Assembly (NCBI RefSeq): GCF_003550065.1
Contig: NZ_QXDC01000002.1
Span: 186,001 to 250,000, forward strand
Origin: Hephaestia caeni
Lineage (GTDB): Bacteria; Pseudomonadota; Alphaproteobacteria; Sphingomonadales; Sphingomonadaceae
DNA length: 64,000 nucleotides
Reading direction: 5' to 3'
Made by a program: the position numbers and the translations under genes
The notes under the pieces: generated by a model
What the model was told of the DNA's origin: nothing
Databases searched by the model: none
Seen by the model: the letters and a program-made list of their open reading frames with translations, nothing else
Shown: piece by piece, positions 1,118 to 38,696 of the stretch
How positions within the stretch are numbered: the stretch's first letter is position 1
Layout: each line of letters opens with the position of its first letter

Positions 1118-1125
1118 TCTCAATT

Positions 1126-3070: not shown

Positions 3071-3114
3071 GCCAACTTGATTCGTATCGCGACGTATTCG
3101 CGTCGCACGCATGG

Positions 3115-3139
3115 AAAGGCCCGCCTTTGGCGGGCCTTT
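3115..3139 (+). terminator. recA terminator hairpin
   Basis: An 11-bp perfect stem, AAAGGCCCGCC / GGCGGGCCTTT, with a 3-nt loop lies 45 bp after the recA stop. The descending arm ends in TTT, as expected for an intrinsic terminator in a GC-rich genome; the symmetry would let it act on either strand. Confidence 0.85.
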
Positions 3140-3284
3140 CGACGTTTCGGGGCCAAGGCGTTATCCCGTGGGACCGTCGACTTGGTCGACTTTGAAAGGG
3201 AAGCGATCACGCGATCTCGCCGCTCCCGATATTCTTGATTAACCTCTTATGTTGACGCACGATCGTGAAAAATGGGGGGATGAT

Positions 3285-3767: not shown

Positions 3768-4399
3768 CGATCATCGTCCATCATCTCGAAAATTCGCGCT
3801 CGCAGCGGGTGCTGTGGTTGCTCGAGGAACTCGGTCTGCCTTATGAGGTCCGCCGCTACGAACGCGATCCGAAGACGATGCTCGCTCCGCCGGCGCTCGC
3901 CCGTGTCCACCCGCTCGGCAAGGCGCCGGTGATCGTCGATAGCGATGCGGACGACCGCGTCGTCGCGGAGACGGGAGCGATCCTCGAATATCTCGTCGAG
4001 AAAGGCGACGGCCGCCTCGGCGCGCCCGCGCACCACGAATCGGCGCTGCGCTACCGCCACTTCCTCCATTACGCCGAAGGCTCGCTGATGCCGCCGCTGC
4101 TCGTCAAGCTCGTGCTCGGCCGTGTGCCCATGTTCGGCAAAACGGCGCAAAAACGCTTCCAGCCGATGATCGACGTTCATCTCGATTATGTCGAAGCCGA
4201 GCTGGCGTCGCACCCGTGGTTCGCGGGCGATGCCATGACCGCCGCCGACATCATGATGAGCTTCCCGCTCGAAGTCGCGCGCCACCGCGCCGGGCTCGAT
4301 GCGCGTCGCCCGGCGACCATCCGCTGGCTGGAGACGATCCATGCACGGCCCGCCTACCAGGCCGCGCTCGCCGCCGGGGGACACTATGCCTATGCGTAA
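3764..4399 (+). CDS. Glutathione S-transferase family protein
   Basis: This 211-residue protein has the GST layout: an N-terminal thioredoxin-like domain (VTIIVHHLENSRSQRVLWLL, then HPLGKAPVIVD with the cis-Pro, and ETGAILEYL for gamma-glutamyl binding) and an all-helical C-terminal domain ending near WLETIHARPAYQAAL. Ser in the SRSQRVLWLLEE segment is the likely glutathione-activating residue. The GTG at 3764 overlaps the stop of the upstream gene and is in frame with the conserved beginning, so I take it as the start. A role in detoxification is inferred from family only; the substrate is unknown. Confidence 0.88.
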   Translation: MTIIVHHLENSRSQRVLWLLEELGLPYEVRRYERDPKTMLAPPALARVHPLGKAPVIVDSDADDRVVAETGAILEYLVEKGDGRLGAPAHHESALRYRHFLHYAEGSLMPPLLVKLVLGRVPMFGKTAQKRFQPMIDVHLDYVEAELASHPWFAGDAMTAADIMMSFPLEVARHRAGLDARRPATIRWLETIHARPAYQAALAAGGHYAYA

Positions 4400-4500
4400 T
4401 GGGGGTGTGCCTGCTAGGGGAGCGCTCGCGCAATAAACGTACGTGAAATGTCATCGGGCCGGAAGCGGGAAGCCCGGCCACAATAGCGAAGGGAGAGAGC

Positions 4501-7079: not shown

Positions 7080-8581
7080 GCTACGCCGCGCTCGAACAGG
7101 CAGAGCGCGAACATCGGCGCGGATCGAGCGGGGCCGCGATAGCGGGCCGTAGGGGCGAACCACGGCCCGCTGAGCGGATACACCTCCATAATCCGTTCGG
7201 TCTGCCGTCCCTCGCAGCCATGCTGTGCGACGGCGAGCCGCCACCGCGTCGGTGTATCGATGCCCGGGAGCGCGCGGACGCCCGATACAAGGGCGAGCGC
7301 GCGGCGGCTAGTGGTGTCGATCGCGATCGCGCCGGTATGCGCGGCGACGATGCGGGCGGCGGGTGTGTCGGCGCGCAGCATCGTCGGCTGGCGCGCGATG
7401 GTGGCCAGGGCGATCACGAGCAAGACTGCTAGCGCCACAAGCACGGCGGCATCGGCGCGCATCGCAAGCGATCGCGGCGAGAGCGCGCCGATCGCCAGCG
7501 CCGCCGCCGCCGCGAGCGGGAGGAACATCCGCGGCAGCGGGTCGATCGCGAGCACGTAGATCAGGATCGCGCTCGCTCCGAGGGCCGCGATCAGCAGCCG
7601 GGTCGCCGCGAGCGCGTGTGGTCGCGGCACAGCGCGGCGCCGTGCGATGATCAGCACCGCCGCCGCCATCAGCGTCGGCCCGATCATCGCGTGGGCGAGC
7701 AGATTGATCACCGGGTTGATCGTCCAGTGCACGTCGATGCCGCTCACGGGGCGCCAACCGGCAATGACCGCGGGATTGAGCAACGGCCCCCGGCTCACAT
7801 CGACGCCGGCGGCAAGCGCTGTCGACGGCACTGCGGTATGGTGCAGGGCGATCGCATAGCGCGCCAGCGGATCGCCGAACATCGCGGTGAACGCCGCCAT
7901 CTCGACCGCTATCGGCGCGACGAAGCCTGGCACGGCCCAGAATAATATCCGCCGGGTTTCGCGATCGGCGCACAGAAAGGCGGCGCCGGCGACAATGATA
8001 TAGGCAAACCCCGTCTCGCGGCTTTGCACGGCCAGCGCCAGCATCACGCCTGCGAACAAGGCGGCGGATCTCGATCGGTGATCGCTTGCGGCAATCGAGG
8101 CGGCGAGTGCGGCAAGAAGGAAGGTCAATTCGACGATGTCGATATTGGGGTGCAGCAGCGATAACCCGACCATCGGCGTCGCGAGGAACGCAATTCCGGC
8201 GATCAGGCTCGCGGCGGTGCCGAACAGCCTCAGCGCGAGGTGGCGGATAAGAGCCACCGCGGCGAGACTGTACACAAGCGGCACCAGCCCGACGATCAGC
8301 CGCGACTCGCCGAGCAGGCCGATCGCGATCGAAAGCGGCGCGATCAGCGGCCAGCGCGTCGCCCAGTGCTGCGTCGGCACGCACGGCCCGTGCGCCACCC
8401 AACATCGTGCCGCCTCCAGATATTGCCAGTCGTCGGTGCCACCACCGATGAAACCACGCGGATTGATGGCAAGGATCAGGCCGACGAAACCCAGCAGAAT
8501 CAGCCCGTCGCGCGGGACGCGAAGTGAGCGACGCGAGACGGGCATGGTGTCGTGGAATGGGAAGGGGCGGGCGATTGCCAT
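7076..8581 (-). CDS. Integral membrane glycosyltransferase-like protein (GT-C/GT39 type)
   Basis: This 501-residue protein has about ten hydrophobic segments. After the first membrane segment it has a short periplasmic loop with an acidic pair, GGGTDDWQYLEAARCW, as in GT-C glycosyltransferases such as ArnT and PMT that use lipid-linked sugars. Further motifs are HPNIDIVELTFLLAAL and a conserved RETGFAYI loop. These support a polyprenyl-sugar-dependent transferase, possibly modifying lipid or protein on the periplasmic side. The substrate cannot be told. An in-frame ATG at 8545 is a plausible alternative start, because neither site has a clear Shine-Dalgarno. Confidence 0.7.
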   Translation of the reverse strand: MAIARPFPFHDTMPVSRRSLRVPRDGLILLGFVGLILAINPRGFIGGGTDDWQYLEAARCWVAHGPCVPTQHWATRWPLIAPLSIAIGLLGESRLIVGLVPLVYSLAAVALIRHLALRLFGTAASLIAGIAFLATPMVGLSLLHPNIDIVELTFLLAALAASIAASDHRSRSAALFAGVMLALAVQSRETGFAYIIVAGAAFLCADRETRRILFWAVPGFVAPIAVEMAAFTAMFGDPLARYAIALHHTAVPSTALAAGVDVSRGPLLNPAVIAGWRPVSGIDVHWTINPVINLLAHAMIGPTLMAAAVLIIARRRAVPRPHALAATRLLIAALGASAILIYVLAIDPLPRMFLPLAAAAALAIGALSPRSLAMRADAAVLVALAVLLVIALATIARQPTMLRADTPAARIVAAHTGAIAIDTTSRRALALVSGVRALPGIDTPTRWRLAVAQHGCEGRQTERIMEVYPLSGPWFAPTARYRGPARSAPMFALCLFERGVA

Positions 8582-8680
8582 GCCCGTCGTCTAGCGCGGT
8601 TTGGCTAAGCCTCGCTTAATGCGCATCGCCGGCTTTGTGTCGCCTTGCTCGCGTGCGTCACTCCGCCTAGATCGCACATC

Positions 8681-11347
8681 ATGACCTCTACCAACGACAT
8701 CCGCCGCTCGTTCCTCGATTATTTCGCAGGCACTGGCCACACCAAGGTGCCGTCTGCGCCGCTCGTGCCGCAGAACGATCCGACCCTGATGTTCGTCAAT
8801 GCCGGCATGGTGCCGTTCAAGAACGTCTTCACCGGGCTTGAGACGCGTCGTTATTCGACCGCTACCTCGGCGCAGAAATGCGTGCGCGCGGGCGGCAAGC
8901 ACAACGATCTCGACAATGTCGGCTATACCGCGCGCCACCACACCTTCTTCGAGATGATGGGGAATTTCTCGTTCGGCGATTATTTCAAGGATCAGGCGAT
9001 CACCCACGCGTGGACGCTGCTGACCAAGGAATGGGGCCTGCCCGCCGAAAAGTTGACCGCGACCGTCTATCACACCGACGACGAGGCGTTCGATCTCTGG
9101 AAGAAGATTTCGGGACTCCCCGAAAGTCGCATCATCCGCATCGCGACCAAGGATAATTTCTGGGCGATGGGCGAGGATGGGCCGTGCGGTCCGTGCTCGG
9201 AAGTCTTCTACGATCATGGCGACCATATTCCCGGCGGCCCTCCCGGAAGCCCGGACGAGGATGGCGATCGCTTTGTCGAGATCTGGAACCTCGTCTTCAT
9301 GCAGTACGAGCAGGAAGCGGGCGAGATCACCGGCAATTTGCCCAAGCCCTCGATCGATACCGGCATGGGGCTCGAGCGTGTCGCCGCGGTGATGCAGGGC
9401 GTGCACGACAATTACGATACCGACACGTTCAAGGCGCTGATCGCCGAATCGGGTGCGCTCACCCACACCGCGACCGCCGGCGCAAACCAGGCGAGCCACC
9501 GCGTGATCGCCGATCACCTGCGTTGCTCGGGCTTCCTGGTGGCGGACGGCGTGCTGCCGGCGAACGAGGGCCGGGGTTATGTGCTCCGTCGCATCATGCG
9601 CCGCGCGATGCGCCATGCCCATCTTCTGGGCGCCAAGGAGCCGTTGATGTACCGGCTGGTGCCGGCGCTGGTCGCCGAAATGGGGGTGGCCTATCCCGAA
9701 TTGATCCGCGCCCAGCCGCTGATCGAGGCGACGCTGCAACAGGAGGAAACGCGCTTCCGCCAGACGCTCGACAAGGGGTTGAAGCTGCTCGACGAAGCGA
9801 CGGCCGGGATGAAACCCGGCGAGACGTTGCCCGGCGAAACCGCGTTCAAACTCTACGATACCTATGGCTTTCCCTACGATCTGACCGAGGATGCGTTGCG
9901 TGCGCATTCGTTTCAGGTCGATCGCGAAGGTTTCGAGGCGGCGATGGCCGAGCAGCGTCGCGCGGCGCGGGCGGCATGGAAGGGATCCGGCGACAAGGCA
10001 TCGGACGAGTTGTGGTTCGATCTCGTCGAGGAAAAGGGCGGCACCGAATTCGTCGGTTATACGTCCGAACAGGGTGAGGGTGAGATCATCGCGATCGTCA
10101 GAGACGGCGCGCGCGTTGATCGCGCTGCCGTGGGCGACACGGTCGATATCGTCACCAACCAGACGCCCTTTTACGGCGAAAGCGGCGGCCAGGTGGGTGA
10201 CGCTGGCATCTTTAGTAACGACGACGGATTGCGAGCCGTTGTTACCGATACGAAGAAGTATCTAGGCCGGGTCTGGGCGCATCGCGCGACGATCGAGGCG
10301 GGCGCCGTCGGGGTTGGTGATCCGATACGGATGGAGGTCGATCCCATCCGCCGCGCCGCGATCCGCGCCAACCATTCGGCGACGCACCTGCTTCATGCGG
10401 CGCTGCGTGCCCATCTGGGCACCCATGTCGCGCAGAAGGGCAGTCTCGTCGCGCCCGATCGGCTGCGGTTCGATTTTTCGCAGCCCACCGCGGTCGAGGC
10501 GGCGGCGCTGGCTGAGATCGAAAGCGACGTCAACGCCTATATCCGCCAGAACGACGCCGTTGAGACGCGGCTGATGACCCCCGACGAGGCGATCGCCGAA
10601 GGCGCGATGGCGCTGTTCGGCGAGAAATATGGCGATGAGGTGCGCGTCGTTTCGATGGGGCGCACCGGCGGCGATAACGCACCGATCTACAGCCTCGAAT
10701 TGTGCGGCGGCACGCATGTCGCCTCGACGGGCGATATCGGCCTGTTCAAGGTGGTGAACGAAGGCGCGGTGTCGTCGGGCGTCCGCCGGATCGAAGCGTT
10801 GACCGGGGACGCCGCGCGGCGCTGGTTCGAGGCGCGCGACGAGAAATTGCGCGAGACCGCGGCGGTTCTCAAAGCCGCGCCCGATGAGGTGCCCGCGCGT
10901 GTCGCGGCGCTGGTCGAGGAGCGCAAGCGGCTGGAGCGCGAGCTTGCCGAGGCGAAGAAGGCGCTCGCGCTCGGCGGCGGCGCGAGCCAGGCCGCCGGCC
11001 CCGAGCAGGTCGGCGGCGTGGGTTTTCTGGCGCAGGTGGTCGAAGGGCTCGACCCCAAGGGGCTGCGCGGTGCGGTCGACGAGATGAAGGCCCGCGTCGG
11101 GTCTGGGGTCGCGATGCTGGTCGCGGTCAACGACGGGCGTGCTTCGGTCGCGGTTGGGGTCACCGACGATGTCGTGGCGACGGCAAATGCGGTCGCACTG
11201 GTCCAGAGCGCGGTGGCGGCGCTGGGCGGCAAGGGCGGCGGCGGGCGGCCTGATATGGCGCAAGGCGGCGGCCCCGATGGCGCCAGGGCGGACGATGCGG
11301 TCGCGGCGGTGCGGGCGGTGCTGGAGCAGAACGCGCTGGCGGCGTGA
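8681..11347 (+). CDS. alaS: Alanine--tRNA ligase
   Basis: AlaRS charges tRNA-Ala in the cytoplasm. The 888 residues have the full class II layout. The catalytic domain opens with [15 protein letters not shown]; the editing domain has the zinc-binding [11 protein letters not shown] and CGGTH motifs; and a C-Ala domain ends the protein, with a coiled coil ([19 protein letters not shown]) and a glycine-rich [16 protein letters not shown] segment. I chose the start at 8681 rather than 8645 because the family begins at this Met. In many alphaproteobacteria recA and alaS are neighbours; here four coding regions lie between them. Confidence 0.98.
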
Positions 11348-27846: not shown

Positions 27847-28809
27847 CTATGGAGACGCTTCTCGTGCCGATGTGAGTGGCTGTCTAGGCGTAAGAAGTAG
27901 CTTGCCAGCAGAAATATCCAGTATGAAGTTGAACCTGTTGAGGAGGCCCATCCCGATTACGCCATCACCGAGTTCATCGTTCATTTCGCTAATCTCAGCG
28001 GGAAAATCACGAACCTGCAATGGGCCAAAGCTCATTTCACTGATCACCACGGTCGGCGTCGTCCGCGAGGAGCCGTCAGCTCCATATCGTTCCTCTTTCC
28101 TCAATGGCTCCGTGGTGAGTCCAAGGCGATGCCAGGTAGTATCCCTAATCGCCGCCTGACCATTATATCCCAGGTCCACCGACAACAATAGCGATTGGTT
28201 GCTGACTTTGGCTGCGATCTTTGCCGGCTTCACCAGAGGGAAGACAATATGCGCTTCACGAGGCGTCACCTTTCCGCTTGGTGCTAGCGTGAACCGTTGA
28301 CCGTCAGTGTCAAAGATGAGCGCAAAACGGCTGAGAACGTCAGCCCCCAGAATTCCACCGATCGGCCTACCCAGAAACTTTTCCATTTCGCTAAGATCGA
28401 ATGTGAACAGGTTTCCCGCGACGCTAAACTGCGGTGGAATCGTCACGGCACCATCGTCCAGCCGGTGTCCTACGATCTCACCTTGCATCGTCTTGAAGGA
28501 CATCGTGCTCGCCGTGGTTCTGTAGCCTGCCTGCTTCGCCACCGCTTCATCAAGGATGGTGTTGCTGGCACCGTTGTCCAACACCATCCAAATATCTCGA
28601 TTAGCAACGACGGCCTTGAAGAATATCGTTCCATTGTGAATTTCGACGGGCGTGGCCCCATATTGGTCTTTGCCGACGAACTGGATCGTTATCCGCCCAT
28701 TCTCAGCGGAAGAGTCAGGTGCGGACTCTGCTTGAGCGAAGGCGGTAGCGGGAGTCCCCATGAGGACACCAAGCGAAGCGATATATGGAAGAAAGCTCAT
28801 TATTCGCAT
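27847..28809 (-). CDS. Duplicated retropepsin-like aspartyl protease (protease 1 of the cassette)
   Basis: This 320-residue protein has a signal peptide (MRIMSFLPYIASLGVLMGTP, cleavage near AFAQA) and two retropepsin-like lobes. Lobe 1 carries IWMVLDNGASNTILDE (Asp78) and ends GGILGADVLSRFALIFD; lobe 2 carries LLLSVDLGYNGQAAI (Asp212) and ends GVIGMGLLNRFNFILDI. The usual D-T/S-G triad appears as D-N-G and D-L-G, so activity is likely but not certain. It would act in the periplasm. It is divergent from the leader-peptide gene and is a paralog of the protease at 29768. I infer a role in processing or immunity for the secreted peptide. Confidence 0.8.
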   Translation of the reverse strand: MRIMSFLPYIASLGVLMGTPATAFAQAESAPDSSAENGRITIQFVGKDQYGATPVEIHNGTIFFKAVVANRDIWMVLDNGASNTILDEAVAKQAGYRTTASTMSFKTMQGEIVGHRLDDGAVTIPPQFSVAGNLFTFDLSEMEKFLGRPIGGILGADVLSRFALIFDTDGQRFTLAPSGKVTPREAHIVFPLVKPAKIAAKVSNQSLLLSVDLGYNGQAAIRDTTWHRLGLTTEPLRKEERYGADGSSRTTPTVVISEMSFGPLQVRDFPAEISEMNDELGDGVIGMGLLNRFNFILDISAGKLLLTPRQPLTSAREASP

Positions 28810-29190
28810 AAGTTCCTCAGAATCATTCCTGATGACTCCTGCTGAGTTAGCATACCGTGATCATACTGCGAAATGATCACTCCAGCGCGGTCCGCTTAAA
28901 GTCAGCGGAGCCTTTTGTAAAAATTCTGTAACAGTTGTTGGCTGAAATTGCCCGCAGTCGCAAAAAATCTCAATTCCATGGCAAATTGCCAACATTATCC
29001 TGTCGATATTGGACTTATATAGGAAATTTGTATTGACCGACTCGCTCTGAGCCTACACGTTTACCGGCCGGGCTGGAGACAGCCCGGCCGGTCGAGACAA
29101 GAGAAGGGCAGCACACGCAGGCACGGAAATCGGAGTTGTTGTTCTTTCTTTCTCGACGGCGCTCAATGCCAACGTGAAAGGAGCTATCTG
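28810..29190. promoter_or_regulatory. Divergent control region between protease 1 and the peptide gene
   Basis: This gap of 381 bp is AT-rich up to about 29040 and must hold promoters for both flanking genes. I cannot place the -35/-10 boxes with confidence. The part near the peptide gene contains a perfect 12-bp hairpin at 29063-29092 and an AAAGGAG ribosome binding site at 29176-29182. No gene is seen in it. Confidence 0.5.
29063..29092 (+). promoter_or_regulatory. Perfect hairpin in the leader of the peptide gene
   Basis: ACCGGCCGGGCT pairs perfectly with AGCCCGGCCGGT across a 6-nt loop. No T-run follows on the plus strand, so it is not an obvious intrinsic terminator there. It may stabilise the mRNA, or block transcription coming from outside the cassette. 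Confidence 0.55.
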
Positions 29191-29682
29191 ATGCGCATGT
29201 TAACTCGCGAGGAGTTGAAGCTCGTCGCTGGAGGAAATTCTTCGTCTGAAATAGTCGTCATTGGCGATCCTGGCGGCGGCGGTGGTGGTTGGGGTGGCGG
29301 TTGGCCCGGTGGTGGCTGGCCCGGTGGCGATGGAGGCTGGGGCAGCGGCGGAGGAAGCGGTGGCGGAGATGGGGGCGGCTCTGTTGACGTTGACGTCGAT
29401 ATTGACCCCGAGGCCAACGAGGCTGACATCGTTGTTACTGCATCAATTGCGCCCAACGCTGATCTCATAGCTGATTTCAGCCTGAATGACCTCTCGGTCA
29501 ACAGCATTTCCTTGCAGATAACTAACAACGGTTCCGTTTATACGGGGACTGTTAACATAGAAAATGGATCATTTGATCAATCGTATCAGGTAGATTTTGG
29601 AGGTGGAATAACCGGATCATTGTCCTTTAGCACCAACGGAAGCAGCTATTCTGCATCTGGGTCATTGGTTATTCCGTTCTGA
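29191..29682 (+). CDS. Double-glycine leader, glycine-rich secreted peptide (bacteriocin-like precursor)
   Basis: This 163-residue protein starts with a class II bacteriocin-type leader, MRMLTREELKLVAGG, with the Gly-Gly cut site at residues 14-15 for a C39 peptidase. The mature part has EIVVIG (20-25), a Gly/Trp/Pro-rich tract (28-63), an acidic VDVDVDIDPE stretch, DIVVTA (79-84) and a beta-strand-like Ser/Asn/Thr/Gly-rich end to residue 163. It has no Sec signal. AAAGGAG lies 8 bp before the start and a strong terminator follows. Its position next to HlyD and C39-ABC genes makes it the likely cargo of that exporter. Whether it is a toxin, signal or adhesin is unknown. Confidence 0.75.
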   Translation: MRMLTREELKLVAGGNSSSEIVVIGDPGGGGGGWGGGWPGGGWPGGDGGWGSGGGSGGGDGGGSVDVDVDIDPEANEADIVVTASIAPNADLIADFSLNDLSVNSISLQITNNGSVYTGTVNIENGSFDQSYQVDFGGGITGSLSFSTNGSSYSASGSLVIPF

Positions 29683-29687
29683 CGTTG

Positions 29688-29731
29688 AAAATAGGTGGGA
29701 TTGGTTATTTTAACGATCCCGCCTATTTTTA
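29688..29731 (+). terminator. Terminator after the peptide gene
   Basis: AAAATAGGTGGGAT pairs with ATCCCGCCTATTTT (one G-T pair) and ends in a T-run. It lies 6 bp past the peptide stop and 37 bp before protease 2, so the peptide is probably made in excess and the exporter genes by read-through or by their own promoter. Confidence 0.85.
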
Positions 29732-29767
29732 TTGGTAACTCTTTCGATTTTATCAGGAAATAGAGAT

Positions 29768-30703
29768 ATGAATCTCAGAAGATTCACAATTTTCCTATGT
29801 ATATTTCTTCTACCCTTCCAAGTCGCACGAGCGCAAGGCGTTGGCACAGCGCCATCCGATTCCACGACTGGCGAACTCGTTCAACAAGATGTGAAGCTTT
29901 CGTTAGCGCAGAAGGAATGGGCTCCAACGCCAATTGATCTCCTGAGAGGCGGCATTTTCTTCAAGGGGAATGTGGCGGGTAAAGAGGTTTGGGTGTTGCT
30001 CGACAATGGTGCAGAGCAGACGTTCATCGATGTCAATTTGGCGCGAAGCCTTGGACTGAAAACCAATGACAGTCACGGAAGGGTTCGAACGGCAAATGGC
30101 ACCAGTATTCAGAGCGTGGTGCAAAATGTCCCATTTTCCATTCCTAGGCAGCTAACCTTTCAAGCGCACATGGCTGGCGTGGACCTCTCGCGTTTCTCTG
30201 CGGAAATCGGTCGCCCGGTTGGCGTAATTCTCGGAAGGGAGTATTTTAATAAGTTAGCGTTTTACGTAGATACCGAAAATATGAAGATTTATATTAGAAA
30301 TAGCGGATCAATAAATCCAAAAATCGGCAAAGATGTAGCGGAAATTTCGCTTAATGATAACAATTCTATAAGCATGAATATTAATGGCAAGCCGGCTACG
30401 GTTTATGTGGACCTTGGTAACAATGGCGCTCTATCTATCTCTCAGGAGGACTGGAGAAATTACATACCAGTAAATTCGAATTCTCGCAGCTCGGTGGCTG
30501 TGGATGCGAGTGGAGAAAAATTTCTAACCAAGGAAGTGAATTCAGTCAATGTGGAAATTGGAACCGTTAAAGGTTCCATGCCAGCCAGAGTTTCGAAAAG
30601 GAAGTTTTCTGGCGTTAATGGTTTTTTAGGGTCAGCTTTTTTTACTAGGTTTAATTCTTTGTTCGATTATAGCGCAAAGAGAATAGTTCTTATTCCACAT
30701 TAA
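29768..30703 (+). CDS. Duplicated retropepsin-like aspartyl protease (protease 2 of the cassette)
   Basis: This 311-residue paralog of protease 1 has a signal peptide (MNLRRFTIFLCIFLLPFQVA, cleavage near ARAQ). Lobe 1 has VWVLLDNGAEQTFID (Asp79) and GVILGREYFNKLAFYVD; lobe 2 has VYVDLGNNGALSI (Asp215) and GFLGSAFFTRFNSLFDY. It shares the DNGA and DLGxNG active-site variants with protease 1, so the variants are probably a family trait rather than decay. The gene is strikingly AT-rich, the most foreign-looking stretch of the window. I chose 29768 because the signal peptide begins there; the frame is open from 29732. HlyD follows after 46 bp. Confidence 0.8.
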   Translation: MNLRRFTIFLCIFLLPFQVARAQGVGTAPSDSTTGELVQQDVKLSLAQKEWAPTPIDLLRGGIFFKGNVAGKEVWVLLDNGAEQTFIDVNLARSLGLKTNDSHGRVRTANGTSIQSVVQNVPFSIPRQLTFQAHMAGVDLSRFSAEIGRPVGVILGREYFNKLAFYVDTENMKIYIRNSGSINPKIGKDVAEISLNDNNSISMNINGKPATVYVDLGNNGALSISQEDWRNYIPVNSNSRSSVAVDASGEKFLTKEVNSVNVEIGTVKGSMPARVSKRKFSGVNGFLGSAFFTRFNSLFDYSAKRIVLIPH

Positions 30704-30749
30704 TCGCGAATCAGATTGGTTTAAATGTATTTTACAATATAGGGGCGTT

Positions 30750-32003
30750 ATGGATTCGCAGAGTTTGTTTCGTGAAGAGGTGGCTCAGGCACGAAACGAG
30801 CGGCTTCACGGCACCGTGGTCCTCTCGCAACCCATTTCCACCACTGTCATCGTTGGTGCGATTGTGTTGGTCATGATCGGGGCATTGGCCTGGGTCGTTT
30901 ACGGGACATTCCCAAGGATTGAGACTGTGGCCGGTGTGCTGGCTACCGATCGCCCGTCCGCAAGGCTCTACCCGAGCACAACCGGAGTAATCTCGAAAAT
31001 TTACGTCAAAGACGGAGGCTATGTCCGGGCCAATGAGCCCATCGCAACGATTCAAGTGGATCGAAAGGCTTCGTCGGGTGAAGGCATCGCCAGCGCCGCA
31101 CTGGCTTCGGTGAGGAATGAACTCGCCTTCAACCGGAAACAAATCGTCCTTTCCAAGAACTATACAACTTTGGAAGCCGAAAGGCTTTCGAATGCACGTG
31201 AGGCTGCGCTTCGCGAGCTATCCTTGATCAAGCAGAAGATACAAATCCAACAGGACCTGATTCAGTCCAATGAAGAGATGCTCGGGCGGATTGAGGGTGT
31301 CTTGGAACGCGGTTTCGTGTCCCGCGTGGAGTATGAGCGGCGACGCCAGATGGTTTTGAGCACGCGGCAAGAGTTGGCAACCTTGGAGCAACAGAAGAAT
31401 GCTAAACAGGGCGAAGCCGACGCGGCGAGACTCGCCATCGATAGCCTCCTTGCAGACCAAAAGCGCGCCGAAAACCAAATCGAAGCGGCCGTTGAGCCGC
31501 TCAATCAAAAGTTGGCGCAATTTGAAGGAGATTCGGCGTATTTGGTCACGGCGCCGCTGGATGGATGGGTTACGGCCTTTCAGGCAGGCGTCGGCAGCCG
31601 CGCCGATCCTCAATTTCCTTTGGCTGTAGTCGTCCCGCGAGATGCTTCGTTGAAGGCGATACTGTATGCACCAAGCCGGGCGATTGGGGCTGTCCATCCA
31701 GGGCAGGAAGTTCGCTTACTCTATGACGCGTTCCCCTTTCAGCAGTTCGGTAGCTTCCAGGGCGTCGTGAAAGCCGTTTCACGCACGGCTATCAATCCCA
31801 AGGATCTGGACGCCGCCTTCCAGACGGAAGAGCCGGTCTATCGCATCGAAGTGATTCCTTCTCAGCAATCGGTCTTGGCCTTCGGGAAGCGCGAAATGCT
31901 CCAGCCCGGCATGACCTTGCAGGCGAACATCATACTGGAACGCAGAACCTTCTTAGATTGGTTTCTAGCGCCACTTCGGGCCGCTGCGAGGAGATCGTCG
32001 TGA
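30750..32003 (+). CDS. HlyD family secretion adaptor of the peptide exporter
   Basis: This 417-residue membrane fusion protein has a short cytoplasmic N-terminus, one membrane helix (about residues 30-55, TTVIVGAIVLVMIGALAWVV), a biotinyl-lipoyl half (LYPSTTGVISKIYVKDGGYV), a long coiled coil at about residues 110-250 and a beta-barrel end (MLQPGMTLQANIILERRTFL). It is of the type that works with C39-peptidase ABC exporters (bacteriocin and colicin V export). It should reach an outer membrane factor such as TolC, which is not encoded in the element. The next gene starts inside its stop codon (GTGA). Confidence 0.92.
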   Translation: MDSQSLFREEVAQARNERLHGTVVLSQPISTTVIVGAIVLVMIGALAWVVYGTFPRIETVAGVLATDRPSARLYPSTTGVISKIYVKDGGYVRANEPIATIQVDRKASSGEGIASAALASVRNELAFNRKQIVLSKNYTTLEAERLSNAREAALRELSLIKQKIQIQQDLIQSNEEMLGRIEGVLERGFVSRVEYERRRQMVLSTRQELATLEQQKNAKQGEADAARLAIDSLLADQKRAENQIEAAVEPLNQKLAQFEGDSAYLVTAPLDGWVTAFQAGVGSRADPQFPLAVVVPRDASLKAILYAPSRAIGAVHPGQEVRLLYDAFPFQQFGSFQGVVKAVSRTAINPKDLDAAFQTEEPVYRIEVIPSQQSVLAFGKREMLQPGMTLQANIILERRTFLDWFLAPLRAAARRSS

Positions 32004-34147
32004 GCGACGCTGCGGCGCTAAATCTCTCCGGACGCGCCCGGCTCCCGTATATTCCTCAATCGGAGGCAAGTGAGTGCGCCTTGGCGTGCCTTGCAATGGT
32101 AGCGGGCTTTCATGGCTACAAGACAGATTTGGTCGCACTGCGACAGAGGTTCGGTCTTTCCCTTAAGGGGGCTACGCTAGGACAGGTTATCCGGGTCGCC
32201 GAAGCAATAGGCTTCAATTGCCGGCCATTGAGAGGCGAGATCGAAGAATTCGATAAGATGGCATTGCCCGCCATATTGCACTGGAACCTCAATCATTTCG
32301 TTGTGCTCGCTGGGATCGAGAGACGTGTTCAGGGCGTGCGCTATATCGTTCACGACCCTGCCAGGGGCGTGCTGAAGCTCAGTGGCGAAGAGGTGTCACG
32401 CTCCTTCACGGGCGTAGCTCTTGAACTCCTGAAATCGGCGGAATTCGTGCCTGGCGTCGAGAAGACGAAATTTGGCGTGCGGCAGCTCTGGAGTTCGATC
32501 AGCGGATTCTGGTCGGTCCTGAAAAATGTGCTGATCCTCTCCGCCGTTATTCAGTTGGCGACGCTGGCATTGCCATTTCTGATGCAAGTGTCCGTCGATA
32601 GCGTCGTGCCATCATCGGATCGAGATTTGCTCCTTGTTCTTGCACTTGGCTTCGGGGGGCTGGGGCTAATCAAGGTGTTTTCGAGTTGGGTACGATCGCT
32701 TGCGGTCGTCAGCATGACCAACTCCCTGTCTTATCAGGTGATCGTCAACCTATATCGGCACCTCCTGCGCTTGCCCCTACAATGGTTCGAGAGACGTCAT
32801 ATCGGCGACATCGTTTCTCGTTTCGGATCGACGCAGCCAATTACGCAGCTCGTCAGTGACGGCATGGTAACGGGACTCATCGATGGCGTCATGACGCTCG
32901 CGACGTTGACGCTGATGGTGATCTATGCGCCGCTTTTGGCGCTTGTGACGTCAGTGCTCTTCGCGTTCTATGCCGGTTTGCGTTTGGCGTTTCTCAGTAC
33001 GTTGCGGCTCAAGAACATCGATGCAATCACTGCTGCGGCACGCGAGCAAAGTGCTTTTATCGAGAGCGTCAGAGGTATCGCTGCGATCAAGGCCTTTGGT
33101 CAGGAAGGCAATCGGCAACGTCTTTGGCAAAGAACAAAGGCCGATGCCGTCAACGCGCAAATAAAGCTTGAAAGAACCACTGCCGGGTTTGACGGGCTCG
33201 GGCAGCTCGTCCTGATTGTTGAACAGATCGCATTTGTATATCTCGGAATCGGTCTTGTTCTGGATGGGGCTCTGTCACTTGGAATGCTTTTTGCGTTCCA
33301 GGCGTACAAAACGCAATTCCTCGATGCCTCCATGCGGCTTATCGAGCAGCTACTGAACTATAAGATTATGCAGGTGCATCTTGCCCGCGTGGCTGACGTG
33401 GCCTTATCGAAGCAGGAGGACGCCAATCTGGTTGCCAATGTTGATCGGCCGGATTTCAGCCAGGAGTTGGAACTACGTAACGTCCATTTCCGCTATGGCT
33501 TCGGGGAGCAGAGCGTTCTCAAGGGAGTCAATCTGACCATCCGGCCGGGCGAGATGCTGGCATTGATCGGTCCTTCCGGGGGTGGAAAAACCACGCTCAT
33601 GAAGATCATGATGGGTCTGTTCGAACCGTTTCATGGGGAGGTTCTCGTTGGCGGCCGATCGATCAAGAGTTTCTCCAAGCACGCCTACCGACAGGCTATC
33701 GGTTCAGTTTCACAAGACGACCAACTCTATGCTGGCAGCATTGCCGAAAATATAGCCTTCTTCGATTCGGAAATCGACATGGCGAGGGTAGAGGAAGTCG
33801 CTAAACTGGCGGCCGTTCATGATGAAATCAACGCTATGCCGCTTCGCTATGATTCCTTGATTGGCGATATGGGGTCGGTGTTATCGGGCGGTCAGAAGCA
33901 GCGTGTATTACTGGCAAGGGCACTTTATGGTCGGCCAGCCATACTATTCATGGATGAAGGAACTGCTCATCTTGATCCTGAAAATGAAGCTAAGGTCCTA
34001 GAGGCGCTTTCGCGTCTCAGCATTACGCGGATCGTAATCGCGCATCGTCAGCAGTCAATCGAGGCGGCCGATAGGGTAATGACGGTTTCGAAAGGATTGG
34101 TGCATGACAAAGCTGCCGGCAGCCCCACCCTCAAGATTGAGGTCTGA
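32000..34147 (+). CDS. Peptidase-containing ABC transporter (C39 peptidase, PCAT)
   Basis: This 715-residue protein has all three parts of a leader-cutting exporter. The C39 domain (residues 15-140) has catalytic Cys26 in QSEASECALACLAM, His99 in LNHFVVL and Asp119 in VHDPARG. The membrane domain spans about residues 165-450. The ATPase has Walker A GPSGGGKTT (about 523), signature LSGGQKQR (about 627), Walker B ILFMDEGTAHLD and the H-loop IAHR. It should cut after Gly-Gly and export the peptide through the HlyD adaptor. The GTG at 32000 overlaps the HlyD stop and has AGGAG before it; the upstream ATG at 31958 lies inside HlyD and is unlikely. Confidence 0.95.
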   Translation: MSDAAALNLSGRARLPYIPQSEASECALACLAMVAGFHGYKTDLVALRQRFGLSLKGATLGQVIRVAEAIGFNCRPLRGEIEEFDKMALPAILHWNLNHFVVLAGIERRVQGVRYIVHDPARGVLKLSGEEVSRSFTGVALELLKSAEFVPGVEKTKFGVRQLWSSISGFWSVLKNVLILSAVIQLATLALPFLMQVSVDSVVPSSDRDLLLVLALGFGGLGLIKVFSSWVRSLAVVSMTNSLSYQVIVNLYRHLLRLPLQWFERRHIGDIVSRFGSTQPITQLVSDGMVTGLIDGVMTLATLTLMVIYAPLLALVTSVLFAFYAGLRLAFLSTLRLKNIDAITAAAREQSAFIESVRGIAAIKAFGQEGNRQRLWQRTKADAVNAQIKLERTTAGFDGLGQLVLIVEQIAFVYLGIGLVLDGALSLGMLFAFQAYKTQFLDASMRLIEQLLNYKIMQVHLARVADVALSKQEDANLVANVDRPDFSQELELRNVHFRYGFGEQSVLKGVNLTIRPGEMLALIGPSGGGKTTLMKIMMGLFEPFHGEVLVGGRSIKSFSKHAYRQAIGSVSQDDQLYAGSIAENIAFFDSEIDMARVEEVAKLAAVHDEINAMPLRYDSLIGDMGSVLSGGQKQRVLLARALYGRPAILFMDEGTAHLDPENEAKVLEALSRLSITRIVIAHRQQSIEAADRVMTVSKGLVHDKAAGSPTLKIEV

Positions 34148-34148
34148 C

Positions 34149-34931
34149 ATGGCCAATCGATCACTGGGAAGCGGGAAGTATTATATTGGTGACGTCCATA
34201 TCCCCCCATTTCGGCCTCCGCCTTGGAGTAGTCTGGACACTGGATTGCGAAACCGATTGAATGACGTGGAAAAGGCGATTGCAGCAAAAGGCGAAACCAA
34301 TCCTTTGGCGGCAATCGAGAAAATTCACGATCCCAAGCGCGAGGATATCAAATCCAGGGTCGAGGAGTTGCAACACCCTCTGAGTCCCTACCTGAGCTAC
34401 ATGGATGGTGGGGTTCGAAAGTCGCGCACATCCTCGACCGAGGTGGCCATCGCACAGCACATTGCCAAACTAAAGTCTGAAGGGCTCCTCAATGCTATGA
34501 ACGTGGTGATAGAAGCGCTTCCCGTGCATGCAAAGGGGATACGCGTGACACAGGTTGGGACCAATACGGATAAGTTCGGCAATCGCGGCATCTATCCGCC
34601 TCCGCACCGAGTCCCAGCTTTGATTGACGAACTTGACCGCACTATTCGCGATTGTGAGGCGGAGGCGCCGTTATGGGCGTCGATTCTTGCTTTCTCCGGA
34701 GTAAACGCCATCCACCCTTTCGAAGATGGAAATGGAAGAACGGCTCGGATTCTTTTTAACGCTTTCATGTTAAAACGCGTGCGGGGATGTTTCTACCTTC
34801 CCATAATCGAGATTTGGGAGATTTCAAAAGGCGGCTTGCTTATAAAACTGAGAGATGCTCTTCATAATAATAATTGGAGCGACTTGGCAGAGCACTTCTG
34901 TCGCTCCTATGAAATAATGATGGATGGATAA
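34149..34931 (+). CDS. Fic family protein coupled to the peptide exporter
   Basis: This 260-residue protein has a complete Fic motif, HPFEDGNGRTARI (about residues 188-200), with the catalytic His and the anion-binding Gly-Asn-Gly-Arg. Fic enzymes usually AMPylate or otherwise modify hydroxyl groups on target proteins. The N-terminal region has a KSRTSSTEVAIA segment where many Fic proteins carry the autoinhibitory SSxIEG helix; the Glu is there but the following Gly is Val. It lacks the C-terminal winged helix of longer relatives. It starts one base after the ABC exporter stop, so it is translated with it. Its target is unknown. Confidence 0.88.
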   Translation: MANRSLGSGKYYIGDVHIPPFRPPPWSSLDTGLRNRLNDVEKAIAAKGETNPLAAIEKIHDPKREDIKSRVEELQHPLSPYLSYMDGGVRKSRTSSTEVAIAQHIAKLKSEGLLNAMNVVIEALPVHAKGIRVTQVGTNTDKFGNRGIYPPPHRVPALIDELDRTIRDCEAEAPLWASILAFSGVNAIHPFEDGNGRTARILFNAFMLKRVRGCFYLPIIEIWEISKGGLLIKLRDALHNNNWSDLAEHFCRSYEIMMDG

Positions 34932-34932
34932 G

Positions 34933-35661
34933 TTAGTCGACTGGGATGGTCACAGTGCATCGCGTGGCTTTCTGTGATTTCTGTGTGGCCGAACGGCAAT
35001 CAGAAATTACTTGGAGATTGTCCTGCAAGATTCGGTTTGCCAGGACTACGGTCCGCCAGCGCTCCGGCTCGGCAGTGGCAAGCAGGCGTTCCCCGGCCGT
35101 CCAGCGATCAAGGTCCAGCGTCCGCGCTGCCATTCGTTCGGGCAAATGCCAGCTATCGGGCATGGCGCGCGCTATGGTTCCGGGCGCGATCGACCATAGC
35201 AGGATAGCCGCGAGCGCACCGCCGCCCACCGCCCATAGCAGGTGACGGCGATGTTCGCGGATGGTCGCAACCGTACCTGCCAGCAGTTCCATCCGGGCGG
35301 CAGCTTTGTCGATCCGGTCGCGCGCCTGCGCGGTGGCTGCGCTGTCCTCCGCGCGCGCCGCCTTTCCGGCCGCCGCGATCTGCTGCGCCATCGCATCCGG
35401 CGTGATCTCCATCGCTGGACGGTGGGCGAGCGTGTTGATCGCCTTGCGCATCCTTTCGAGAAGCGCCGCGATCTCGCCAAGCGTCTCGCTATAGTCCGGC
35501 ATGGCCTCGCGCTTTGCAGAAAGGCCTGCAATGGCCGCTTCCAACAAGGCTACCTTCTCGGCGAGCTGGGTGAAGGCCTGGGTGGCTTTGTCCTGTTCGG
35601 ACGCGGGAACCGCCTCCGGGACCGATCGCGGAAGGGTTGGCAAGTTGCTATCCATGATCAT
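34933..35661 (-). CDS. DUF6118-like protein next to the relaxase
   Basis: This 242-residue protein has a helical, coiled-coil-prone N-terminal half (QDKATQAFTQLAEKVALLEAA and repeated Ala/Glu/Arg helices), one membrane segment (about residues 145-163, LLWAVGGGALAAILLWSIA) and a C-terminal domain with DLDRWTAGERLLATAEPERW. The pattern matches the protein I remember as DUF6118, found beside TraA relaxases on sphingomonad plasmids and islands, but I cannot confirm this by search. It starts 5 bp after the relaxase stop, so they form one unit. It may anchor the relaxosome to the membrane; this is inference. Confidence 0.65.
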   Translation of the reverse strand: MIMDSNLPTLPRSVPEAVPASEQDKATQAFTQLAEKVALLEAAIAGLSAKREAMPDYSETLGEIAALLERMRKAINTLAHRPAMEITPDAMAQQIAAAGKAARAEDSAATAQARDRIDKAAARMELLAGTVATIREHRRHLLWAVGGGALAAILLWSIAPGTIARAMPDSWHLPERMAARTLDLDRWTAGERLLATAEPERWRTVVLANRILQDNLQVISDCRSATQKSQKATRCTVTIPVD

Positions 35662-35666
35662 TTCTC

Positions 35667-38600
35667 CTATCTGCTCATGCCAAGGTCACGGCCGCGCCCC
35701 ATTTCGATACCGACGCTGCTGGCGAGGTCGTGGGAAAGCTGGCGGCCCGTCTCGAAGTTGATGCCGAGTTCCTGCTTGCGGCCGCGCAGGACGGATTCCA
35801 CCTGCGCGTCGCGCTCAAGGCTCTTGACCATGCCCGCCATCTGCTCGGATACTTTCCGCGCGCCCCGGAAGTCCCCATCGCGCTGCAATTCTTCGCGATG
35901 CTGGCCAAGCTGCCGCCAGCCTTCCACGAACCTGTCGGCGCGCTTGTCGGGATCGGTGCGGATTTCCGCCTCTTGGCTCATGGCGCGCATGGCCTGGCGG
36001 ACGCGCCCGGCCGATGCTTCGGACGCCAGCGCGGGATCACGGTTATAGGCTCGCTCCATGTCCTGCGCGGCATACTTGCCGGTCTGGTTCACCGCCTCGC
36101 GGGCCTTGTCGAGTTCGGCGCGCTGGTGGGGCAGGACGGGCAAGCCCTGATCCTGCATCTTCCAGATGTTCGCGACGGCGCGGGCGTGGCGCTGAACGGC
36201 GATAACCCGCATCCGTTCGTGCGCTGCGCGGGCCGCCTTGGCCAGGTCGTGGCTTTGCGGGGGCGGGCGGAAGTTGGCGAACATACTCTGTTCGCGTTGG
36301 TGCTGTGGAGCGGGCGGTTTGAAGTCCGCGAAAATGTCACGCTGTTGATGGGGTGCAGTCTGCGCCCCGCGATCCTGTCCGGGTAGGGAAAGCCGCAACC
36401 CGTCGAAGATGCCGCGCGCCTTCTCCGCGCCTGCGCGGGCGATTTCCGCGATGCGCTCGCGAAAGCCGATCCCGCGCCGCTCGGCGAAGTCGCGCGCCGG
36501 GTCAGCCCGGCTGTAATCGCTCGCCATATCCTTGGCGCGCTCGCGCGACAGCGTGCGGACAAGCTTGCCCTGATCCTTGAAGTCGTCGCGGCCATAGTGC
36601 AGGTCCGCGCCGTCGCGATGCCGCGAGAGGACGACATAGGCGCCATGCCGGTCCATACCGGGCGTCGCGAGCGCATGGGTGCGATCGACGGTGACCGCCT
36701 GCGTCTTGTGGATCGTGGCGGCATAGCCATGATCGAGGTCGCGGTAATCCTTCAAGTCGAACGCCACGCTGCGCCCGCTGTCGGTGCGAACCGTCATGCT
36801 TGACTGGTTGACCTGCTCGACCGTGCCGAGCGTGCCGTTCTTCACCTCAAGGCTATGTTCGTTGCGCCGGAACATCACCCGATCGCCCGGCGCAAAATCC
36901 CGCTCACCTTCCTCGGTCCGCACGCGCACATCGTCGCCCAGCTCGCCCCCGTCGCGTAAGCGCCCGCGCGCCATCTCGTTGAGGGTGCGCACTTCGTCAT
37001 TGGTGTGGGTGAAGATCATGCGCGTGGCCTGCGGTTCGGCCTGCCGCGCAGCGTCCCAACGGTCGATCAGCTCGTCGCGTGCCTGTTCGCGCGTCTCGGC
37101 GGCGTGGACCATACCCTTGTCGGCATAGGCAGCGATGGCTTCGCCGGTTCGACCGGTCGCCAGATGACGCGTGGCGTCCTGCTGCCAGTCGATGCGCTGG
37201 CGACGGATTTCGGTAATCTCCACCCCGCCATGCCGTTCGTGGATGGCGCGGAACGCTGCGCCCGCCTCGATCGCCTGCAACTGCTGCGCGTCGCCCACCA
37301 GCACGACCTTTGCGCCAGCCTCGGCAGCATGGGAGAATACGCGCTCCATCTGGCGCGTGCCGACCATGCCGGCCTCATCGATAACGAGCACGTCGCGCGG
37401 GCCGAGCAAATCGCGCCCCTGCGACCAGCCATGTTCCATGCTCGCGATCGTGCGCGACGCGATACCCGAGCCATGTTCCAGACCCTCCGCCGCAATGCCC
37501 GAGAGCGCGGCGCCGCGCACCTCATAGCCCGCGTGCTCCCACGCCTCGCGTGCAACGCCGAGCATCGCGCTCTTGCCGGTTCCGGCAAAGCCGATAACGA
37601 CACTCAAGCCCTGCCTGTCGGTCACATGGTCGAACGCGGCGCGCTGCTCGCCCGACAGCACAAGCCCATCCGCCTCCGCGCGCGCCAGCGCGCCTTTCCG
37701 GTCCGCTTCCGACACGCGATGCCGCTCGCGTGTCGCCATCAATTCCGATGCGCGTTGCAACCGCTGTTCGGTCTCGATCATCTCGCGGCTGGTGAACCGG
37801 TCCTCGCCGCGTCCGTCTTTGCCAAGCGCGATCAGGTCGGGCGAGGATCGCACCGCGCCGAGCACAGCATCGAACTGTTCGCGCCCATCGCTGTGCCGAT
37901 GCGCGAACATGGCAAGATCGCGGTTCGTGAAGGTCGCCTGCCCGTGGGTGATCGCGTCGAGCGCGATGCCGGGATCGGCGATGATCCGCTCGCCGTTCTC
38001 GCGCGCGATCTCGCGGTGGAGTTCGGCACGGTCGGCAAGCTGGCCCTCGCGTTCCATCCGCTGCGCGGGACCGCCGATCTTGTCCTGCGGTTCAAGGTCG
38101 ATGCCTTGCGCTTCCAGCGACCGATGGTCAATGCGCGCGTCGATGTCGAGTTCGGCGAGCCGCGCGTTGACATGAGCCTCCCAGCGTTCGCGCCACTGGC
38201 CGACATGCGCGTGCTCGTTCCACTCGCGCACCTTCGCCCCGAACCCGTCTTGGCCCACCTCGCGCATGGTGAGCATGACATGGGCATGGGGTTTTGCCAT
38301 GCCGTCGGCGCCAACGTCCCAATGGACATTCAAATCCGCGATCATGCCGCGGTCGACGAACTCGGTCTGGACGAAATCGCGGGCCAGCTCGATACCCTGT
38401 TCCTTCGTCATCTCGCGCGGAATGGCGAACTCGACCTCGCGCGCGAGCTGTGCGTCTTTGCGTAGCTCGATCGCCTCGACTTCATTCCAGAGGGTTTCGC
38501 GGTCGGAGAAGCGTTCGGGCGCGTTCTCCGGCAACATGATTTCGCTATGCTCGACACCCGAGCGGGCGCGGAAATCATGGTCGCGGTCGAGGCGCTCGTC

Positions 38601-38696
38601 GTGCAGGCGCTCGCCCGCGCGATAGGCAGCCGCCGAGACGGCGGAGCGGCCCGAAGTGCGCCCGATGACTTGCACGCTGAAATGGAAGATCGCCAT
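35667..38696 (-). CDS. traA: Ti-type conjugative relaxase/helicase TraA (MOBQ)
   Basis: This 1009-residue protein nicks oriT and unwinds DNA for transfer. The N-terminal MobA/MobL domain starts MAIFHFSVQVIGRTSGRSAV with the candidate catalytic Tyr in AAAYRAGE, and the metal-binding HxH in KPHAHVMLT (about residue 136). The helicase part has Walker A VIGFAGTGKSAMLG (about 369), VLVIDEAGMVG and GYAATIHKTQ. A C-terminal helical region follows. The layout and oriT match Agrobacterium Ti TraA and the IncQ MobA group. It is transcribed away from traC-traD with oriT between them. Confidence 0.93.
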   Translation of the reverse strand: MAIFHFSVQVIGRTSGRSAVSAAAYRAGERLHDERLDRDHDFRARSGVEHSEIMLPENAPERFSDRETLWNEVEAIELRKDAQLAREVEFAIPREMTKEQGIELARDFVQTEFVDRGMIADLNVHWDVGADGMAKPHAHVMLTMREVGQDGFGAKVREWNEHAHVGQWRERWEAHVNARLAELDIDARIDHRSLEAQGIDLEPQDKIGGPAQRMEREGQLADRAELHREIARENGERIIADPGIALDAITHGQATFTNRDLAMFAHRHSDGREQFDAVLGAVRSSPDLIALGKDGRGEDRFTSREMIETEQRLQRASELMATRERHRVSEADRKGALARAEADGLVLSGEQRAAFDHVTDRQGLSVVIGFAGTGKSAMLGVAREAWEHAGYEVRGAALSGIAAEGLEHGSGIASRTIASMEHGWSQGRDLLGPRDVLVIDEAGMVGTRQMERVFSHAAEAGAKVVLVGDAQQLQAIEAGAAFRAIHERHGGVEITEIRRQRIDWQQDATRHLATGRTGEAIAAYADKGMVHAAETREQARDELIDRWDAARQAEPQATRMIFTHTNDEVRTLNEMARGRLRDGGELGDDVRVRTEEGERDFAPGDRVMFRRNEHSLEVKNGTLGTVEQVNQSSMTVRTDSGRSVAFDLKDYRDLDHGYAATIHKTQAVTVDRTHALATPGMDRHGAYVVLSRHRDGADLHYGRDDFKDQGKLVRTLSRERAKDMASDYSRADPARDFAERRGIGFRERIAEIARAGAEKARGIFDGLRLSLPGQDRGAQTAPHQQRDIFADFKPPAPQHQREQSMFANFRPPPQSHDLAKAARAAHERMRVIAVQRHARAVANIWKMQDQGLPVLPHQRAELDKAREAVNQTGKYAAQDMERAYNRDPALASEASAGRVRQAMRAMSQEAEIRTDPDKRADRFVEGWRQLGQHREELQRDGDFRGARKVSEQMAGMVKSLERDAQVESVLRGRKQELGINFETGRQLSHDLASSVGIEMGRGRDLGMSR

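Follow-up and report, generated by a model that had tools for sequence, protein, structure and literature searches.

A six-gene cassette in Hephaestia caeni raises the question of what an exported protein, two protease-like proteins and a Fic enzyme might do together. The cassette lies entirely within positions 27847-34931 of the window, by which we mean the whole stretch of 64,000 nucleotides analyzed here (assembly GCF_003550065.1, contig NZ_QXDC01000002.1, positions 186,001 to 250,000). An earlier reading made from the letters alone, called the sequence-only reading below, had described a protein with a double-glycine (GG) leader (the cargo), flanked by two paralogous secreted retropepsin-like proteins (here AspA and AspB, or Asp proteins) and followed by HlyD, a C39-ABC exporter and Fic; all six genes were confirmed, AspA alone being on the minus strand and the other five on the plus strand. 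We consider it somewhat probable that the cassette represents a polymorphic family of GG-leader, TonB-dependent bacteriocins, in which envelope proteins, the Asp proteins being one type, would confer immunity and Fic would modify the cargo.

Recurrence of the cassette in other genomes

The grouping of these genes is not due to chance. Co-occurrence in other genomes, which the sequence-only reading had posed as a refuting test, was sought from three starting points, the exporter, Fic and Asp, the latter two being family searches seeded from two earlier finds, loci L152 and L286. The complete five-part set (HlyD, C39 exporter, GG protein, Asp and Fic) was found in the window, L152 and L286, and both Fic and Asp were found individually beside further C39 exporters. 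In Dyella sp. ASV24 (L152), the row comprises HlyD, the C39-ABC exporter, Fic, a GG protein rich in Gly, and a secreted aspartyl protease in which DTG occurs twice. The row of L286, from the same family (which we take to be Rhodanobacteraceae), is made up of HlyD, exporter, GG protein, Asp and Fic, and L284 shows the same row with an Asp-like protein under the Pfam cut-off.

The search starting from Fic in 197 genomes of the Dyella family gave 24 hits in 20 genomes, and a C39 exporter was present in 8 of the 17 neighborhoods examined (L152 itself, L281 and L283-L288); the seven hits outside these neighborhoods were long reading frames of 352-406 codons. The search starting from Asp in the same genomes gave 50 hits in 40 genomes, and among the 20 neighborhoods taken besides the two seeds, an exporter with HlyD accompanied Asp in four (L324, L325, L337 and L339), all with GG cargos. 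No Fic motif was detected in the stretches fetched for these four loci, the contig of L337 having Fic pieces further out, and the same Fic-less set was found in L164, a metagenome-assembled genome of Oxalobacteraceae, in which Asp lies inside the exporter operon.

The exporter itself matches Peptidase_C39 (E value 2.8e-31), ABC_membrane and ABC_tran in Pfam. The sequence-only reading of an intact C39 site was borne out by an alignment with six relatives, in which Q14, C20, H93 and D113, presumably the catalytic Gln, Cys, His and Asp, are invariant. Relatives of the exporter (E values up to 1e-80) occur in 53 of the 296 genomes of the window's order. A scan for the C39 domain in contigs of 84,980 species gave 220 relatives, the best 80 of which were taken (L103-L182): 18 form a close clade (L103-L120), hosted by Sphingomonas, Erythrobacter, Porphyrobacter, Qipengyuania, Sphingorhabdus and unnamed Sphingomonadales, and 62 are more distant. 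Pattern search detected a GG-leader protein in 16 of these 18 close-clade loci and none in L105 and L117. Among the 80 loci, an Asp match was obtained in L152 and L164 only. In addition, two peculiarities of the exporter genes were observed: L112 and L113 have a single open frame of 1148 codons (7687-11133) where HlyD and the exporter are expected, and the genome of the window carries a second HlyD and C39 exporter pair (L076, G000:C4, 7179-10759), 47% identical to the first.

Within the cassette (Table 1), the HlyD and exporter genes overlap by 4 bases, and the exporter stop codon (34145-34147) is followed one base beyond by the most likely start of Fic; the start at 34104 given in the sequence-only reading was not kept. 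Beyond Fic, DUF6118 and then a TraA/MobA-type relaxase follow on the opposite strand. In Sphingomonas sp. MM-1, the conjugative plasmid pISP0 carries part of an exporter gene, followed by Fic (66.7% identity), a short gene, DUF6118 and TraA, and this shared Fic-DUF6118-TraA order supports the previously suggested location of the cassette on a mobile element. In the pISP0 copy (L249, 6272-9780), the exporter gene is interrupted by an IS5-type transposase.

Table 1. Coordinates of the cassette, its flanking genes and the sulfotransferase-like/Fic pairs of related loci
Feature	Locus	Positions	Strand	Basis
AspA, secreted two-lobe retropepsin-like protein, 320 amino acids (aa)	Window	27847-28809	-	Pfam PF13650/PF13975, alignment motifs, signal-like N-terminus
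GG-leader cargo, 163 aa	Window	29191-29682	+	Leader MRMLTREELKLVAGG read directly
First ten mature residues, NSSSEIVVIG, with TonB-box-like EIVVIG at their end	Window	29236-29265	+	Box score
Second box-like motif, DIVVTA, upstream of the cargo C-terminal part	Window	29425-29442	+	Box score
AspB, secreted two-lobe retropepsin-like protein, 311 aa, paralogue of AspA	Window	29768-30703	+	Pfam, alignment
HlyD-type membrane fusion protein of the exporter	Window	30750-32003	+	Pfam/NCBIfam
C39 peptidase-ABC exporter, PCAT type	Window	32000-34147	+	Pfam/NCBIfam; invariant catalytic residues
Fic enzyme, motif HPFEDGNGRTAR intact, without [ST]xxxE[GN]	Window	34149-34931	+	Pfam PF02661, motif scan
DUF6118, outside the cassette	Window	34933-35661	-	Pfam; mobile-element context
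TraA/MobA-type relaxase, outside the cassette	Window	35667-38696	-	Pfam; mobile-element context
Sulfotransferase-like protein and Fic	L106	11225-13606		Pfam (in this locus only)
Sulfotransferase-like protein and Fic	L108	4772-6673
Sulfotransferase-like protein and Fic	L111	11217-13427
Sulfotransferase-like protein and Fic	L117	11935-13309

Variable cargos behind a shared leader

What is exported differs greatly from locus to locus. Close-clade cargos have similar leaders (FRxLTxxELxxVxGG), whereas their C-terminal parts vary widely, including hydrophobic helical, HExxH-containing, DUF4329-like and CGxGW...HDxxY-containing ones and others. A common N-terminal region for export joined to interchangeable C-terminal domains, as in polymorphic toxins, looks like a polymorphic toxin family rather than the single exported peptide of the sequence-only reading. 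Most cargos of the family have 100-330 aa. The mature peptides of class II microcins are smaller than about 10 kDa, a limit exceeded by the 148 mature residues of the window cargo.

The window cargo consists of the leader, a TonB-box-like start, a Gly/Trp-rich linker, a second box-like motif and an all-beta C-terminal part. It had no match up to an E value of 0.1 in Pfam or NCBIfam, whose models may not cover microcin-like proteins. The best of five models of its C-terminal 100 aa, predicted from the single sequence, has eight strands and a predicted local distance difference test score (pLDDT) of 77.4 (63.0-36.6 for the other four). Foldseek gave no match to this model in the PDB at an E value below 0.001, and a second structure comparison, with a best Z score of 5.1 (6le0, root-mean-square deviation 3.5, 70 residues aligned), revealed no clear relative. 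A leaderless homologue of this C-terminal part, which looks like a remnant, adjoins the Asp gene in L064 (7116-7469).

Sequence motifs in other cargos led us to putative labels (lysozyme-, phospholipase- and metallopeptidase-like). Weak matches to endolysin PHROGs were obtained for L283 (E value 0.0014) and L285 (0.0019), the L110 cargo matched a PHROG of unknown function (8e-6), and the L112 cargo matched DUF4329 under the Pfam cut-off (0.00046). Pfam gave no match for L281, L283 and L288 and a leader match only for the L106 cargo, for which NCBIfam likewise returned merely weak leader matches; a sequence search of the PDB gave no significant match for the phospholipase-like L110 cargo or the L281 cargo.

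A feature that the sequence-only reading did not contain is a TonB-box-like motif after the GG cut. In the genome of the window, a DIVVTA/EIVVTG-like motif precedes the plug of TonB-dependent receptors at 19 of the 30 loci examined by pattern (58 plug hits), and the same motif directly follows GG in many cargos, among them those of L108 (GGADIVVTA), L111 (GGNEIVVTG), L110 (GGSDEIVVTG), L107 (GGADIIVTG) and the window (GGNSSSEIVVIG). Using a sphingomonad weight matrix built from 23 receptor boxes, with a match defined as a score of at least 8 within 40 residues of GG, we found a box-like motif in 10 of 22 sphingomonad cargos (three near-duplicates removed), compared with a mean of 0.17 and a maximum of 3 in 2000 shuffles, and in none of 22 GG proteins of distant exporters. 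In the window cargo, the first box-like motif (mature index 4, with numbering from 0) scores 10.5 and the second (index 63) 19.6. A second motif of this kind, about 63-73 residues into the mature cargo and before its C-terminal part, was observed in the window, L110, L113, L116 and L114.

The form of the motif follows the lineage to some extent. In genome G401, which carries L286, 13 of the 30 receptor loci examined (56 hits) show LDxVVVTA/G, LEGITVTA/G or similar, and the L286 cargo starts with LDTIVVNG. With boxes from one genome of the Dyella family, 7 of 13 cargos of that family matched (shuffle mean 0.05, maximum 2). When the matrices were exchanged at threshold 8, 5 of 22 sphingomonad cargos matched the matrix of the other lineage and 2 of 13 Dyella-family cargos matched the sphingomonad matrix, the latter rising to 6 of 13 at threshold 6. 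The lineage specificity of the box is thus partial, and a partly lineage-matched form argues for its use as a TonB box.

Amyloid and RaxX-type systems likewise rely on C39 peptidases and exporters, so that the exported proteins might be adhesive, matrix or signaling proteins rather than antibacterial ones. The Gly-rich and beta-rich composition of the window cargo would suit such a role, as would the sulfotransferase-like protein that stands beside the exporter in four loci, as in the Rax locus. However, the C-terminal diversity, the envelope-type gene behind most cargos and the lysozyme-, phospholipase- and metallopeptidase-like C-termini, presumptive as these labels are, fit toxins better, and it is hard to see what a matrix protein would need a TonB box for; we regard a non-antibacterial role as quite unlikely.

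Protease-like partners and the Fic enzyme

AspA and AspB match Asp_protease_2 (E values 9.4e-19 and 1.7e-15) and gag-asp_proteas, PF13650/PF13975 being above the gathering score, and are 27% identical to each other. In both proteins, lobe 1 carries DNG and lobe 2 DLG in place of the canonical D-T/S-G. Active proteases, as which they had been presented in the sequence-only reading, therefore cannot be assumed, and the Asp proteins of the window may not be proteolytic. An AlphaFold2 model of AspB (three sequences) reached a mean pLDDT of 43.7 and is unusable for active-site geometry. Retropepsin-like proteins were identified by Pfam in the window, L152 and L286 and by similarity in L064, L164, L324, L325, L337 and L339; the lobe motifs of relatives include DNG in L064 and L098, DTG in both lobes in L152, and DTG and DTA in L164 and L286. 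Six Asp-adjacent cargos (window, L152, L286, L324, L325 and L337) and the leaderless L064 fragment have a C-terminus that is beta-rich by eye, the mutual similarity of some of these cargos being of a low-complexity kind. In L325 (8513-12644), three tandem Asp-protease-like genes lie behind a single GG cargo and exporter.

The Asp proteins appear to be one among several alternatives at the same position. The gene after the cargo encodes a hydrophobic, membrane- or secretion-type N-terminus in 25 of 32 cases, compared with 114 of 405 control open reading frames (ORFs) of the same loci (p 2.8e-8), as judged by a crude hydropathy criterion and a crude gene caller. Other partners adjacent to the cargo are alpha/beta-hydrolase-like (L115, E value 2e-11; L112, under the cut-off; L066, L067 and L068, by motif only), ClpP-like (L064 and L114, by motif) or small membrane proteins. 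The lysozyme-like cargos of L281 and L288 have small secreted partners (6918-7421 and 9061-9621) with FWFLFDAGASS/FWFLLDAGSS, which are perhaps one-lobe retropepsin relatives, the sole profile value being an E value of 0.0084 for L288.

The sequence-only reading had left open whether the proteases mature, activate or neutralize the peptide. Maturation would involve a second cut, in the linker or at the second box-like motif, that releases or activates the C-terminal part; the window cargo does have such a motif ahead of its C-terminal part, catalysis is plausible elsewhere (DTG in both lobes of L152 and in the first lobe of L164), and the L164 gene lies between HlyD and C39. We nevertheless regard maturation as unlikely: both window proteins carry DNG/DLG, partners of other kinds occupy the same position at most close-clade loci, Asp being restricted to two of L103-L182, and some Asp genes, one of them on a conjugative Sphingobium plasmid, have no exporter nearby. 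Several alternative secreted partners fit immunity better than obligatory maturation, and exporter-free Asp genes are what would be expected of mobile (orphan) immunity genes, so that immunity, the neutralizing role, is preferred. It would act through proteolysis where DTG is kept and perhaps through binding where it is not.

Fic matches PF02661 (E value 1.4e-12), and HPFEDGNGRTAR agrees with HxFx(D/E)GNGRxxR, the motif of Fic AMP-transferases. It contains no [ST]xxxE[GN], the motif of auto-inhibited class II Fic proteins, and among 18 exporter-linked Fic proteins this motif precedes the Fic motif in L111 only (SLDVEG, possibly by chance). The long Fic proteins of L290 and L291, which are unlinked to an exporter, carry SSQIEG; at L289, also unlinked, the script scored a different ORF of 255 aa (HPFIDGNKRTA) without a motif of this type. 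A Fic motif was present in the fetched stretch of 9 of 19 close loci (window included; 7 of 17 without L113, nearly identical to L112, and without L103), 1 of 62 distant loci and 1 of 33 loci in L070-L102 (28 centered on the exporter and 5 on Asp). The chance expectation is about 0.005 per 18.5-kb stretch, from 28 Fic matches in 31 related genomes of an assumed 3.6 Mb each. Fic as a mere chance neighbor is ruled out by this expectation and the close and distant counts. In an order-wide Fic search, the top three hits (G000, G167 and G290) and a lower one (G052) all lie at most 4 kb from a C39 exporter. Short Fic proteins were found with an exporter in 8 of 14 cases examined and long ones in 0 of 3, which is not a significant difference (Fisher p 0.21).

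The genes around Fic are informative as to its role. Fic adjoins the GG gene in L106, L108, L111, L112 and L152 and comes after cargo and partner in L286; the order exporter, sulfotransferase-like protein, Fic was found in L106, L108, L111 and L117, with the GG gene next in the first three. In addition, cargos of loci with Fic are richer in Gly than others (10 vs. 13 cargos, p 0.0019). Exporter linkage, adjacency to the GG gene, the missing inhibitory motif and the Gly-rich cargos together lead us to infer that Fic modifies the cargo. Immunity or an effector function had been suggested in the sequence-only reading; the effector is disfavored, since Fic accompanies only some half of the exporters in the close clade and in several loci directly adjoins the GG gene, as would suit an accessory enzyme that modifies the cargo.

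Another Fic and GG precursor setting was observed by eye in L243 (G290:C13:1-15000, 67-8637), a cluster resembling those of ribosomally synthesized and post-translationally modified peptides (RiPPs), with a C39 exporter, ATP-grasp-like and thioredoxin-like proteins, Fic, a TonB-dependent receptor and a Cys-containing GG precursor of 61 aa. It is less likely than not that Fic instead acts on one of the producer's own proteins (the exporter, TonB or a regulator) for immunity or control, or is a passenger of toxin-antitoxin type on the mobile element. This would agree with the Fic of L103, which is on the opposite strand beside ORFs that by eye are nucleotidyltransferase-like and integrase-like, with the close loci that lack Fic and with the joint occurrence of Fic, DUF6118 and TraA on pISP0; it agrees less well with the absence of the inhibitory motif from most linked Fic proteins, the adjacency of Fic to cargo genes and its position inside the RiPP-like cluster of L243.

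Proposed mechanism and relation to known systems

We propose the following mechanism for the bacteriocin family. Judging from the assigned protein families, cleavage behind GG by the C39 domain would remove the leader, and the protein would be secreted through the HlyD/ABC channel. The new N-terminus with its TonB-box-like motif would engage TonB via a TonB-dependent receptor and thus reach the periplasm of related bacteria, where, behind the Gly-rich linker, the variable C-terminal part, in the window a small all-beta domain, would act in the envelope. AspA and AspB would be cognate immunity proteins that stay in the periplasm of the producer and destroy or bind the toxin, other members of the family using other envelope proteins. 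In what is the weakest step, Fic would most probably add a nucleotide-derived group to the cargo precursor before export, perhaps in the Gly-rich linker.

Several observations weigh against this proposal. EIVVIG of the window, the fifth residue after GG onward, scores less (10.5) than the weakest receptor box (11.2), and no box exceeds the threshold in 12 of 22 sphingomonad and 6 of 13 Dyella-family cargos, including that of L152 with its complete set. The pairing of Asp with beta-rich cargos is broken by L164, L339 and the sub-threshold L284, and the beta-propensity test is weak (p 0.015). Moreover, 16 of the 20 non-seed Asp neighborhoods have no exporter in the fetched stretch, and among the 296 genomes of the order, G163 is the only one besides that of the window in which Asp and an exporter are at most 10 kb apart. 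Fic is missing from the fetched stretch of 10 of 19 close loci, and two linked Fic proteins carry inhibitory-type motifs, SLDVEG before (L111) and TTLSEG after (L112) the Fic motif. The toxin-like labels of the C-terminal domains rest on sequence motifs and weak profile matches, and toxicity, immunity and the Fic substrate are all inferred.

Similarities to several known systems were found. The export of class II microcins and colicin V (CvaA-CvaB) combines a GG leader, a C39-ABC exporter, an HlyD partner and an immunity gene, whereas the cargos described here are larger and variable at the C-terminus, many begin with a TonB-box-like motif, and they are accompanied by secreted hydrolase-like partners and in many cases by Fic. 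In the Rax system (RaxA-RaxB-RaxST-RaxX), a sulfotransferase modifies a GG precursor; HlyD, C39-ABC and a GG precursor are shared with it, as is a sulfotransferase-like protein in L106, L108, L111 and L117, but Fic is added here, the cargo is larger and the window cassette has no sulfotransferase. Colicins B, Ia and M are likewise secreted antibacterial proteins with a TonB box at the N-terminus, but to our knowledge they lack a GG leader and do not leave the cell through a C39 exporter, both of which are present here.

Polymorphic toxin systems also have a shared export module, exchangeable C-terminal domains and a cognate downstream partner (Zhang et al., 2012; PMC3482391); that paper lists Fic/Doc as a toxin domain, and 'double-glycine', 'aspartyl' and 'TonB' do not occur in the first 300,000 characters of its main text. 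The Caulobacter Cdz bacteriocin is likewise alphaproteobacterial, with Gly-zipper proteins secreted by a type I system and an immunity protein in the membrane, but it consists of two small proteins of 84-86 aa, and neither 'Fic' nor 'TonB' appears in the main text of the paper (PMC5380434). The terms 'Fic' and 'aspart' are likewise absent from the accessible part of PMC13174018. The sequence-only reading had considered the system undescribed; each part belongs to a known family, and in the open literature covered, neither the cassette combination nor a TonB-box-like N-terminus of C39-exported proteins was met.

A wider proposal, that Alpha-, Beta- and Gammaproteobacteria share an undescribed and widespread class of GG bacteriocins joining a lineage-adapted TonB-box N-terminus, covalent tailoring before export by a dedicated Fic without auto-inhibition, and protease-fold periplasmic immunity, with several unrelated folds in use and retropepsin-like ones among them, is rather doubtful as a whole. 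If the bacteriocin reading is true, TonB-dependent antibacterial proteins would form a further large family beyond Enterobacteriaceae, Fic enzymes would gain a role in modifying exported proteins, the operon itself encoding an obvious candidate substrate, and secreted proteases or pseudo-proteases would serve as bacteriocin immunity. In addition, lineage-matched TonB boxes could make the target range of such proteins predictable from sequence.

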